Shown here: piece after piece, positions 45,133-49,161 of the stretch
How positions within the stretch are numbered: the stretch's first letter is position 1
Layout: every line of letters starts with the position of its first letter
Assembly (NCBI GenBank): GCA_014379625.1
Contig: JACMLJ010000035.1
Location: 1 to 64,000, forward strand
Source of the DNA: Ferruginibacter sp.
Lineage (GTDB): Bacteria > Bacteroidota > Bacteroidia > Chitinophagales > Chitinophagaceae
Reading direction: 5' to 3'
DNA length: 64,000 bases
Made by a program: the position numbers and the translations under genes
Notes under the pieces: generated by a model
Database searches by the model: none
Told to the model about the DNA's origin: nothing
The model's input: only the letters and a program-made list of their open reading frames with translations

Positions 45133-46122
45133 TTACAACAAACCCTTTTCCAACAAATACTCAGCAATCTGCACGGCATTGGTAGCGGCGCCCTTACGCA
45201 GGTTATCACTTACAATCCAGCAGTTGAGTGTATTGGCCTGGGTTTCATCCCTCCGTATCCTTCCTACAAATGTTTCATCTTTTTCATGGGCTGTTAACGG
45301 CATGGGGTAAACGAAATTGGCGATATCATCCTGCACCACAATGCCAGGCGATTTACTTAACAGGTCCCTCACTTCGTCCAGGTCGAAATCATTTTCAAAC
45401 TCAATGTTCACACTTTCACTATGGCCGCCCATTACCGGTATGCGGACCGTGGTAGCAGTTACTTTTATATTTTCATCCCCAATGATCTTTACCGTTTCAT
45501 TCGACATTTTCATTTCTTCCTTGGTATAGCCGTTTGCTAAAAACACATCTATCTGTGGGATCGCATTCAGGTCGATCGGGTATTTATAAGCCATCTCCCC
45601 CCTGATACCTTTCCGTTCGTTCATCAACTGTTCCACAGCTTTAACACCCGTACCCGTTACACTTTGATAGGTAGATACCACTACCCTTTTGATTTTATAT
45701 TTATCGTGCAATGGCTTTAATACCACCACCATTTGTATAGTGGAGCAATTGGGATTGGCAATGATTTTATCCGCTGCTGTCAATACATCCGCATTTACTT
45801 CAGGTACCACCAGTTTCTTGGTGGGGTCCATCCGCCATGCGCTTGAATTGTCGATTACAGTAATGCCTGCTTCCGCAAATTGAGGCGCCAGTTCCAATGA
45901 GGTTCCGCCTCCAGCTGAAAAAATGGCCACCGCCGGTTTCGCGGCAATAGCATCCGCATAACCCACTACCTTATATTTTATACCCTTAAATTCAACTTCC
46001 TTACCGATGGATCTTTCAGATGCTACGGGTATTAATTCGGTTACCGGGAAATTCCTTTCGGCTAATACCTGCAACATTTTGCTACCTACCAATCCTGTTG
46101 CACCAACTACAGCTACTTTCAT
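45133..46122 (-). CDS. asd: Aspartate-semialdehyde dehydrogenase
   Basis: 329 aa; reduces aspartyl phosphate to the semialdehyde, the branch point to lysine/DAP, threonine, methionine and isoleucine. NADP site GATGLVGSKML, catalytic Cys126 (NPNCSTIQ), His234 (GGHSESVN). Upstream on the minus strand is a leader with a 20-codon peptide rich in Thr and Lys (46269-46331) and an intrinsic terminator (46212-46241), suggesting attenuation by the level of aspartate-family amino acids. No partner gene adjacent. Confidence 0.97.
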   Translation of the reverse strand: MKVAVVGATGLVGSKMLQVLAERNFPVTELIPVASERSIGKEVEFKGIKYKVVGYADAIAAKPAVAIFSAGGGTSLELAPQFAEAGITVIDNSSAWRMDPTKKLVVPEVNADVLTAADKIIANPNCSTIQMVVVLKPLHDKYKIKRVVVSTYQSVTGTGVKAVEQLMNERKGIRGEMAYKYPIDLNAIPQIDVFLANGYTKEEMKMSNETVKIIGDENIKVTATTVRIPVMGGHSESVNIEFENDFDLDEVRDLLSKSPGIVVQDDIANFVYPMPLTAHEKDETFVGRIRRDETQANTLNCWIVSDNLRKGAATNAVQIAEYLLEKGLL

Positions 46123-46211: not shown

Positions 46212-46241
46212 AAAAAAAATGCCCCCCGTTTTGCGGAAGGC
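46212..46241 (-). terminator. Intrinsic terminator in the asd leader (attenuator)
   Basis: Minus strand: stem GCCTTCCG/CGGGGGGC (8 bp with two G-U), loop CAAAA, followed by A and eight T. It lies 90 nt upstream of the asd start codon with no gene between; the CCTTCC of its 5' arm can instead pair with GGAAGG in the leader-peptide region, an antiterminator option. Confidence 0.7.
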
Positions 46242-46268
46242 TTTGCATATTGTACAACAAACAAAATA

Positions 46269-46331
46269 CTAACTAACCTTCCCGTTCGTGGAATGTTTCT
46301 TCGTACCAGTTGTATGTTTTATGATCATCAT
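46269..46331 (-). CDS. Putative asd leader peptide
   Basis: 20 codons, MMIIKHTTGTKKHSTNG and three more, then TAG. Four Thr, four Lys and two Ile, all end products of the pathway that Asd feeds. It ends 27 nt before the attenuator hairpin. The spacing, composition and alternative pairing match leader peptides such as thrL; translation is not shown by sequence alone, and no clear ribosome site is seen. Confidence 0.55.
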   Translation of the reverse strand: MMIIKHTTGTKKHSTNGKVS

Positions 46332-46482
46332 TACTGAACAAAAATAAGGACAAAGGATTAATTGACCAAACCTAAAAAATAAGTCTATAAATGATATGTT
46401 CAGTCCGGCTTAAATTAAATTATTCTGTAATGGGTGTAGGAATGATTAAAGTCAGTATCTTTAAAGTCACGTACCACTTATT

Positions 46483-49107
46483 ATGAAAACAAAGGCGCAG
46501 TTATATCTCTCCTTATTGTTATTGGTATCCGGTATGGGCAAGGCTCAGCTCACGGAAAATTTTTCGGATGGTAATTTTTCATCAAATCCTTCCTGGATAG
46601 GTAGTACGGCAGACTGGACAGTAAATCCGTCTTTTCAGCTTCAAAGTAATAATACGGTTGCAAACAGCAGCTATTACCTGGCTACGGCAAGCACATTGGC
46701 TATTTCGGCACAGTGGGAAATGTATATCAGTCTAAGTTTTAATACTTCCTCAGCAAATTATGCGGATATTTTTTTAACCGCATCGGCCAGTGATCTTTCG
46801 GCCACGGCTACCAGTGGTTATTTTGTGCGCATTGGTAATACCGATGATGAAATAAGTTTATACCGTAAATCATCCACCGGGGCGATTACAAAAATAATAG
46901 ACGGTGCAAACGGGGTAACCGCCACCAGCAACAATACTTTAAAGATAAAACTGACCAGGGATGCTGCCAGTAACTGGACTTTGTACCGGGATATAACAGC
47001 CACCGGTAATACTTATTTTGCGGAAGGTTCGGTTACGGATGCCACTTTCAACAGTTCTTCTTTTTTTGGAATATTGGTTAAGCAAAGTACCGCCAGTTTC
47101 TTTCAACGACATTTTTTTGATGATATTGAAGTAAGACCTTACACGCCTGATATAACACCGCCCGCTATACAATCAGCAACTGCTTTATCAGCCACTACGG
47201 TGGATGTTTTATTTAATGAGCCTTTAGACAATAACAGCAGCCAGGTAGCGCTAAATTATGTTGCCAGTAATTCTTTGGGCGTTCCTGCTAACGCTGTTTT
47301 AGATGCCGGCAATGCCGCGCTGGTGCACTTAACTTTTGCAGGTAATTTTACGAGCGGGCTAAGCTACCAGCTTTCGGTGAATGGTGTTAAAGACCTTGCT
47401 GGAAATGGCATTGTAAATGGTACGGCCACTTTCGTTTATATCGCACCCTATACGGCCCGGCAATATGATGTGGTGATCGATGAAATAATGGCGGATCCTT
47501 TCCCACAGGTGGGTTTGCCAAATAATGAATGGATCGAATTGAAAAATACCGCTGCGTCCCCGATTAATTTACTTGGCTGGAGGATTGGAGATGCGACCGG
47601 GCAAACCGGGGCCTTACCGGCATTTACATTATTGCCTGATAGTTTTGTGATTGTATGCAGCGGCGCGGCAGTAACAGCAATGGCTGCATTCGGTGCAACT
47701 ATTGCGGTTACGGGATTCCCATCCCTGGATAATACGGCAGATCAGCTCTATTTAAAATCGCCACAAAATAATATTATTCATTCGGTGAGCTATACAGACA
47801 ACTGGTACCAGAATCCCTTAAAAAAGGAGGGCGGCTGGACATTAGAAATGGTTGATACCAGAAACCCCTGCTCCGGTTTCAGTAACTGGAAGGCCAGTAC
47901 CGACACAAGGGGCGGTTCGCCCGGGAAGAAAAACGCCGCGGATGCTGTGAATGCAGATGCAAACGCACCCCGTTTGTTAAGGGCCTATACCACAGACAGT
48001 TTAACCATTATCCTTATTTTTGACGAGCCGCTAGATAGTTTGAAAGCCGCTACTGTAAATAATTTTAGTATCAGTGATGGTATCGGGATGCCTGTTAGTA
48101 CTGTGGCGGTTTCGCCTTCTTTCGATAAAGTAGCTTTAAAATTGAACAGCCCATTATTACGCAACAAAGTGTACACGGTAACTGTAGCTTCCGTTCCAGA
48201 TTGTGCCGGTAATGTTATCGGCAATAAAAATACCGCACGGGTAGGTTTACCTGAAGTAGCTGCGGTAGCTGATATTGTTATCAATGAAGTTTTATTTAAT
48301 CCGCCGCCTGCGGGAACAGATTATGTAGAAATCTATAACCGCAGCAATAAGATAATTGATCTGAAGCAAACCTATATTGCCAACCGGAACAGCAGCGGGG
48401 CGATCAGCAGTATTGCCCAGCTAAGTGCAGACAGTTATTTTTTATTTCCGCAGGATTTTATATTGGTAACAGAAAACGTTGCATTGGTTAAAGCGGCTTA
48501 TATTGCTCAAAACCCGGAAGCATTTATGGAAATCAGTTCCATGCCTGTTTTTAATGATGACAAAAGTACGGTCGTCATTTTAAATGCGCAGGGTGATGTA
48601 ACGGATGAATTGTCCTATACTGAAAAATGGCATTTTAAATTAATTGATAACCCGGAAGGAGTGGCCTTGGAAAGAATTGATTACCATGGGCCCACCCAGT
48701 CTGAAAACAACTGGCATTCTGCCGCTACTGCCGCGGGTTACGGAACACCCACTTATAAAAACTCACAGTACAGGATAAACGATGGCCTGCAGGGTGAGTT
48801 GAAATTATCGCCTGAAATCATTTCTCCGGATAATGATGGCCAGGATGATTTTGCTACATTGGACTACAGTTTTAAGGAGCCCGGCTATGTGGCCAATATC
48901 ACCATTTTTGATGCTTCGGGCAGGCCGGTGCGTTACCTGCAAAGAAATGCTTTGTGTGGAACGAAAGGCAGTTTCCTTTGGGATGGTTTGGGCGAAAAAA
49001 AACAGCAGCTCGCAACAGGGGTGTATATCGTATTTACAGAAGTTTTTAATTTAAAAGGAAAAAAGAAGCAGTTTAAAACTCCCGTCGTAGTGGCAAGAAG
49101 AAATTGA
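46483..49107 (+). CDS. Secreted lamin-tail-domain protein with Ig-like repeats and type IX-type C-terminus
   Basis: 874 aa. Signal peptide (MKTKAQLYLSLLLLVSGMGKAQ), a laminin-G/concanavalin-like beta sandwich (about 25-220), Big_5-type Ig repeats (TPPAIQSATALSATTVDVLFNEPLDNNS; a second near RAYTTDSLTIILIFDEPLD), two lamin-tail domains (VVIDEIMADPFPQVGLPNNEWIELKN; IVINEVLFNPPPAGTDYVEIYN), and a C-terminal FlgD/gliding-type domain (ISPDNDGQDDFATLDYSF ... GVYIVFTEVFNLKGKKKQFK). Presumably cell-surface or nuclease-associated; type IX export is inferred from the C-terminus. Confidence 0.88.
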   Translation: MKTKAQLYLSLLLLVSGMGKAQLTENFSDGNFSSNPSWIGSTADWTVNPSFQLQSNNTVANSSYYLATASTLAISAQWEMYISLSFNTSSANYADIFLTASASDLSATATSGYFVRIGNTDDEISLYRKSSTGAITKIIDGANGVTATSNNTLKIKLTRDAASNWTLYRDITATGNTYFAEGSVTDATFNSSSFFGILVKQSTASFFQRHFFDDIEVRPYTPDITPPAIQSATALSATTVDVLFNEPLDNNSSQVALNYVASNSLGVPANAVLDAGNAALVHLTFAGNFTSGLSYQLSVNGVKDLAGNGIVNGTATFVYIAPYTARQYDVVIDEIMADPFPQVGLPNNEWIELKNTAASPINLLGWRIGDATGQTGALPAFTLLPDSFVIVCSGAAVTAMAAFGATIAVTGFPSLDNTADQLYLKSPQNNIIHSVSYTDNWYQNPLKKEGGWTLEMVDTRNPCSGFSNWKASTDTRGGSPGKKNAADAVNADANAPRLLRAYTTDSLTIILIFDEPLDSLKAATVNNFSISDGIGMPVSTVAVSPSFDKVALKLNSPLLRNKVYTVTVASVPDCAGNVIGNKNTARVGLPEVAAVADIVINEVLFNPPPAGTDYVEIYNRSNKIIDLKQTYIANRNSSGAISSIAQLSADSYFLFPQDFILVTENVALVKAAYIAQNPEAFMEISSMPVFNDDKSTVVILNAQGDVTDELSYTEKWHFKLIDNPEGVALERIDYHGPTQSENNWHSAATAAGYGTPTYKNSQYRINDGLQGELKLSPEIISPDNDGQDDFATLDYSFKEPGYVANITIFDASGRPVRYLQRNALCGTKGSFLWDGLGEKKQQLATGVYIVFTEVFNLKGKKKQFKTPVVVARRN

Positions 49108-49116
49108 CCATCTAAA

Positions 49117-49161
49117 AGCCCTGAAAGGGCGAAATAGAATAGCGATGGGTGAAGCCCATCG
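49117..49161. repeat. Double-hairpin interspersed-repeat-like unit
   Basis: AGCCCTGAAAGGGC followed at 49143-49161 by CGATGGGTGAAGCCCATCG, with GAAATAGAATAG between. This two-hairpin unit (CCCTGAAAGGG ... GGGTGAAGCCC) is a short repeat seen scattered in Bacteroidota genomes; from memory, not checked. It lies between two plus-strand genes and may act in termination or mRNA stability. Confidence 0.5.

Follow-up and report, generated by a model that had tools for sequence, protein, structure and literature searches.

A lysine-rich leader peptide upstream of asd in Chitinophagaceae looks like a ribosome-mediated attenuator

Introduction

In the genome of Ferruginibacter sp. (Bacteroidia; Chitinophagaceae), a very short open reading frame (ORF) followed by an intrinsic terminator stands directly in front of asd, the gene for aspartate-semialdehyde dehydrogenase. 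Leader-peptide attenuation is textbook knowledge for Trp, His, Thr, Leu, Ile/Val and Phe, but control by lysine is as a rule ascribed to riboswitches (PMC1262725, in part). We asked whether asd is controlled by a leader peptide and, if so, which amino acid would be sensed. The locus lies in the stretch that we analysed (GCA_014379625.1, JACMLJ010000035.1, positions 1-64,000; hereafter the window, 64,000 nucleotides). An original prediction, made from the letters of this DNA, read the region as an attenuator in which ribosomes stalled at threonine codons raise asd expression. Our analysis supports the first part of this reading, an attenuator leader of asd, and finds a better fit than the second, stalling at threonine codons as the signal. 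In its build, the leader resembles the classical ribosome-mediated attenuators; it would act on asd, with lysine as its probable signal.

Results

Anatomy of the asd leader

The elements of the locus, in the direction of transcription, are as follows.

46366..46370, minus strand: TTTGG, predicted -33 promoter element; from sequence, fits the Bacteroidota promoter
46339..46346, minus strand: TATTTTTG, predicted -7 promoter box (Bacteroidota TAnnTTTG); predicted transcription start near 46334
46269..46331, minus strand: leader ORF, MMIIKHTTGTKKHSTNGKVS; Lys-rich counterparts in 35 curated loci; predicted 5' UTR of ~3 nt
46275..46282, minus strand: X, GGAAGGTT, where the leader ORF ends; forms the 5' arm of the antiterminator; recurs in relatives
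46245..46269, minus strand: central hairpin, enclosed by the antiterminator; sequence 3' of the leader stop can pair with leader codons instead
46235..46242, minus strand: Y, AGCCTTCC, arm common to antiterminator and terminator
46212..46241, minus strand: intrinsic terminator, stem 46241-46221 plus U-run; from sequence, stem conserved in alignment
45133..46122, minus strand: asd, aspartate-semialdehyde dehydrogenase, 329 aa, the putative controlled gene; NF011456 and TIGR01296 above cut-off

The leader ORF (46331-46269, minus strand) encodes 20 residues, among them four threonines and four lysines, with the C-terminal end ...NGKVS, and has a single exact match within its own genome. The terminator reads GCCTTCCG-CAAAA-CGGGGGGC at 46241-46221, then ATTTTTTTT down to 46212. 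The arrangement that had been described is confirmed in the sequence: a 63-nt leader ORF, a terminator ~28 nt after its stop codon and a further 90 nt from 46212 to the asd start at 46122. The same holds for the claim that asd is the only gene there to terminate: the upstream neighbour (46483-49107, plus strand) is divergent from the leader and the gene on the far side of asd convergent, so that the terminator can act on asd alone, which, judged from these neighbours, apparently shares its transcript with no other gene.

The leader was without a match in Rfam (window at gathering scores; locus L001 at E<=0.5). No T-box was matched upstream of asd either: searched in full against Rfam at gathering scores, the window gave a sole match, to an unrelated family.

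Conservation and reach of the leader

Of 59 genomes searched, 56 yielded asd; 30 loci were taken and read by eye. Leader and terminator precede asd in 14 of the 30; the 16 loci without a leader are L010, L011, L013, L015-L018 and L022-L030. The putative attenuator is, by this reading, absent in part of the group, by loss or otherwise. Among 80 asd loci of named records, in which detection relied on a CCTTCC-like terminator followed by reading, 22 bear a leader (21 after duplicate removal), in genera that include Limnovirga, Sediminibacterium, Niastella, Filimonas and Flavihumibacter; L036 and L069, with <200 nt upstream of asd, were left unjudged. After removal of L047, a duplicate of L019, the curated set comprised 35 distinct loci, including L061, which is probably of another family. 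Leader ORF and hairpins are conserved across these 35 loci, the comparison with relatives that the original prediction had proposed.

At E<=0.01, a covariance model built from the curated loci (R1), whose training set overlaps the genomes searched, had matches in 267 of the 394 genomes of the family. Since weak R1 matches can be hisG (best hisG match read, 2.3e-5), we cut this figure to about 226 of 394 at E<1e-6, a count by eye that is neither exact nor a ceiling; some weaker matches also lead into asd. The best 30 R1 loci all precede asd, and in 30 genomes chosen deliberately for their weaker matches the best match leads into asd (24), an aspartate-aminotransferase-like gene (3), dapA (1), hisG (1) or aspartokinase (1). 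At L299, a Lys-rich leader is followed by an asd start recognised by its letters. In a sample of Bacteroidia, 37 of 395 genomes matched R1 at E<=1e-3. The 24 loci read outside the family comprise 15 asd loci with Lys-rich leaders, three hisG, two ilvE and four with nothing fitting. These last (L271, L275, L276 and L278), having no fitting leader or gene, were treated as chance matches. L264, identical to L263, was dropped.

Mutually exclusive pairings recur in relatives

The original prediction held that GGAAGG at the end of the ORF and an earlier TTCC give rise to exclusive folds. In the Ferruginibacter leader, GGAAGG (46282-46277) can indeed pair with CCTTCC, and the earlier in-ORF TTCC with GGAA; X doubles as the 3' arm of this in-ORF hairpin, with AAACATTCC as its partner. 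Both kinds of pairing recur in relatives, where four arms recur in the 35 loci: X (GGAAGG type), situated where the leader ORF ends or immediately 3' of it, Y (CCTTCC), Z (GGGAGG) and an upstream in-ORF stretch (TTCC type) that pairs with X. Three exclusive pairings recur among these arms, namely the in-ORF hairpin, the antiterminator GGAAGG:CCTTCC (X:Y) and the terminator CCTTCC:GGGAGG (Y:Z).

The single-sequence fold of the leader is unremarkable in stability (z -1.09 and -0.92), so the case rests on conservation. Since RNAalifold on a MAFFT alignment recovered the terminator and no other pairing, we tested the pairings arm by arm. The terminator is present in 35/35 loci by construction, because the curated loci were selected for a CCTTCC-like terminator. 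X:Y pairing is found in 35/35 (weakest in L021, -8.7 kcal/mol); own partners average -13.9 kcal/mol versus -12.4 kcal/mol for permuted ones, and 0 of 20000 permutations were as good, relatedness being ignored. The in-ORF hairpin reaches <= -2 kcal/mol in 35/35 and binds at least four bases of X in 32/35; its partner specificity is weaker, with 294 of 20000 permutations as good (relatedness ignored). Pairing between leader codons and the stretch after the stop is also partner-specific (0 of 20000 permutations, relatedness ignored). As a universal protector, this pairing with the central stretch was dropped, being the minimum-energy fold in only 8/35 ribosome-free leaders despite its partner specificity.

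The letters of X and Y differ between groups: GGAAGG:CCTTCC in asd leaders of the family, GGAAAGG:CCTTTCC in asd leaders of other families and GTAAGC:GCTTAC in hisG leaders. Cross-pairing between asd and hisG arms yields ~-6 kcal/mol versus ~-11.5 kcal/mol for own pairs. By their letters, X and Y are exchanged as a pair between groups. X:Y is poor in two of 13 other-family leaders (L259, -6.4 kcal/mol; L261, -6.6 kcal/mol). The parts of the putative switch, their conservation and their partner-specific pairing are thus present at the level of sequence.

The predicted promoter leaves almost no 5' UTR

No promoter was called at the leader by a generic sigma-70 scan, as is expected for this phylum. 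The two promoter elements listed above fit the -33/-7 motif of Bacteroidota (PMC7366714, in part). Applying the box position of Flavobacterium psychrophilum, -12 to -5 (PMC9723704, in part), places the predicted transcription start near 46334, ~3 nt before the leader start codon. In 31/35 curated leaders, a gap of 4-10 nt separates such a -7 box from the start codon of the leader ORF, with exactly 7 nt in 17; by this rule a box is absent in L008, L043, L048 and L058 (4/35); TTG stands at the -33 spacing in 30 of the 31 boxed leaders. Predicted 5' UTRs of the boxed leaders are 0-6 nt, and, given the 4-10 nt between box and start codon, the leader ORF is probably almost leaderless. Mapped 5' UTRs of such shortness are reported to be rare in the phylum, with leaderless transcripts amounting to 5.5% in F. 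psychrophilum (PMC9723704, in part) and 5' UTRs of <10 nt to about 3.7% in Bacteroides thetaiotaomicron (PMC7366714, in part).

The hairpin might instead simply be the constitutive terminator of a short RNA, with asd transcribed from a promoter of its own further downstream. Of the loci without a leader, 10/16 do carry a promoter-like box close to asd, at a distance of 22-65 nt; leader-bearing loci have none within the final 90 nt upstream of asd (0/14), and the antiterminator pairing, kept in 35/35, is at odds with a constitutive terminator. We consider this explanation very improbable. The original prediction had itself pointed to asd transcripts beginning downstream of the terminator, and the count of 0/14 is the answer that the sequence gives.

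Ribosome position would select the fold

The footprint of a ribosome positioned on a stop codon extends up to 12 nt past that codon (PMC4833913, in part). In a fold model with this 12-nt front, X is masked by a ribosome standing on the stop codon of the leader, and the terminator folds in 35/35 leaders. Every leader (35/35) also has a Lys codon at which a stalled ribosome leaves X free, with the antiterminator then folding in 35/35. A first count had placed X within the footprint of the stopped ribosome in 35/35; this was forced by the search window, as X had been sought near the stop only, and we therefore repeated the search over the whole leader. Without that restriction, the best partner of Y ends between -27 and +12 nt of the leader stop in 32/35 and at +13 to +15 in the remaining three. 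Although the in-ORF hairpin is present as a possible protector, the antiterminator is the minimum-energy fold in 26/35 leaders, the Ferruginibacter leader included, when no ribosome is present and the last arm of the terminator is unmade.

The start site, leader translation, termination and lysine response that we infer from this anatomy would be connected as follows. Transcription would begin ~3 nt ahead of the leader ORF, allowing a ribosome to load once the RNA emerges. With lysyl-tRNA plentiful, the ribosome would reach the stop codon and cover GGAAGG; CCTTCC:GGGAGG would then form, and RNA polymerase would terminate before asd. With lysyl-tRNA short, the ribosome would wait on the Lys codons and hold the in-ORF hairpin open, freeing GGAAGG to pair with CCTTCC, which would block the terminator and allow asd to be transcribed. 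The near-leaderless start raises the question of whether ribosome loading would be fast enough for coupling to RNA polymerase. The attenuator that had been predicted for asd is supported by the conservation of the leader ORF, by alternative helices whose arms favour their own partners and by the position of the promoter, and we consider it likely that the leader is a ribosome-mediated transcription attenuator coupling asd expression to charged tRNA-Lys.

Lysine is the most likely signal

Residue counts per leader point to lysine. The 35 curated asd leaders average 4.3 Lys and 2.5 Thr, the 13 asd leaders of other families 4.9 Lys and 0.5 Thr, and nine leaders upstream of dapA 4.6 Lys and 1.1 Thr; 14 hisG leaders have 4.7 His and 0.7 Lys. 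At least three Lys are present in 33/35 curated asd leaders and in 9/9 dapA leaders. As dapA is the committed step to lysine, its Lys-rich leader favours lysine as the signal.

Lysine and threonine are both made from aspartate semialdehyde, which makes it conceivable that the attenuator senses threonine, or lysine and threonine jointly, with a stall on either type of codon turning asd on. The Ferruginibacter leader, with as many Thr as Lys, the 2.5 Thr per curated asd leader and the motif KHT, which recurs in these leaders, would fit such a response. It is harder to reconcile with the drop in Thr to 0.5 in other-family asd leaders and 1.1 in dapA leaders, where Lys stays at 4.6-4.9, or with the family's thrA (aspartokinase-homoserine dehydrogenase), which has a long Thr/Ile-rich leader of its own in 19/20 loci (L232-L251) with a mean of 1.2 Lys. 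In these thrA leaders the low Lys count alone is informative, because the ORFs were picked for at least five Thr. We regard threonine or joint sensing as unlikely. Stalling at Thr codons, as originally proposed, is hence not the best fit to the leaders outside the family or to those of dapA, and Lys is what the asd leaders have in common. Judging by composition, the sensed residue is most likely lysine and not threonine, and threonine may be a second signal in asd leaders of Chitinophagaceae.

The thrA leader ORF ends at an inverted repeat of the AACCCGTTAAGGGTTG type, and no U-tailed terminator was seen by eye in L232-L251. In Ferruginibacter itself, thrA (L232) has no Thr/Ile-rich leader by the same rule.

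The peptide motif, recognisable across the family, could alternatively mean that the nascent leader peptide (KHT..KK) stalls the ribosome in response to a small molecule instead of an uncharged tRNA. All four AAA/AAG combinations occur at Lys-Lys pairs (15, 8, 7 and 4 times), suggesting selection on residues, as this mechanism would have it. Its chances are nevertheless slim: the C-terminal part of the leader varies or is missing, and sister leaders carry runs of His or Ile/Val matching the products of their genes, as codon sensing predicts.

Sister leaders precede other biosynthetic genes

Leaders of the asd build precede dapA in nine loci, plus L290. The nine come from 28 genomes preselected for >1 match (9/28); a separate check found dapA leaders in 3/28 loci, and dapA of the Ferruginibacter genome (L183) has no leader. 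Lys-rich leaders of the same build stand before an aspartokinase gene in L308 and, in one genus, before an aspartate-aminotransferase-like gene (L282, L293 and L303); these hint at a lysine regulon that may extend further.

In L163-L173, L265, L273, L277 and L306, hisG is preceded by leaders that carry His-codon runs and share the attenuator layout of asd; in L272 and L274, leaders with Ile/Val runs and a similar layout precede ilvE (branched-chain aminotransferase). A -7 box lies 4-11 nt before the start codon in 10 of 11 hisG leaders examined, and the one hisG leader searched against Rfam (L171) had no match at E<=0.5. The identity of the genes was checked with curated models at one locus each (dapA L145, hisG L163, ilvE L274) and otherwise by tblastn or likeness. 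The asd model picks up hisG leaders weakly; compared with asd, His or Ile/Val codons replace Lys in the hisG and ilvE leaders, and the X/Y letters of hisG differ.

Relation to known systems

Like the trp, his, thr, ilv and phe attenuators, the asd leader combines a short ORF rich in codons for a pathway product with exclusive helices and an intrinsic terminator before a biosynthetic gene. Unlike them, it would sense lysine and control asd, as well as dapA in some genomes, and its ORF is predicted to lie 0-6 nt from the 5' end of the transcript. The lysine riboswitch (L-box, RF00168) likewise acts on lysine pathway genes through an RNA leader; it is an aptamer and involves no leader peptide. 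RF00168 had no match in the window and none in 147 family genomes (0/147; Infernal with stricter filters, controls positive in 4/14 genomes). In other bacteria, the L-box controls lysine pathway genes via an RNA leader (PMC1262725 and PMC2258182, each in part), and attenuators are named for His, Thr and Phe in other species, the L-box for lysine (PMC1262725, in part). We found no account of a leader-peptide attenuator for lysine, or of one acting on asd, in a mostly open-access literature; the 2010 comparative attenuation survey by Lopatovskaya and co-workers could contain one.

On balance, we lean towards the broader reading that much of Bacteroidia runs a lysine regulon by leader-peptide attenuation in the stead of the lysine riboswitch, using a module near the 5' end that would be re-tuned to Lys, His or Ile/Val through its codons and switching letters. 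The regulon so understood would take in asd, dapA in some genomes, aspartokinase in one and the aspartate-aminotransferase-like gene in one genus. A widespread lysine attenuator, in bacteria whose promoters and translation starts are unusual, would provide a testable regulon and an annotation rule.

Other features near the leader

The divergent gene at 46483-49107 (plus strand) encodes an 874-aa product that has lamin-tail and Ig-like domains and weakly matches a type IX secretion signal. Adjoining the end of this gene, at 49117-49161 (minus strand), is a match to the Acido-Lenti-1 RNA family; at 37.7 bits, it lies just above the gathering score of 37.
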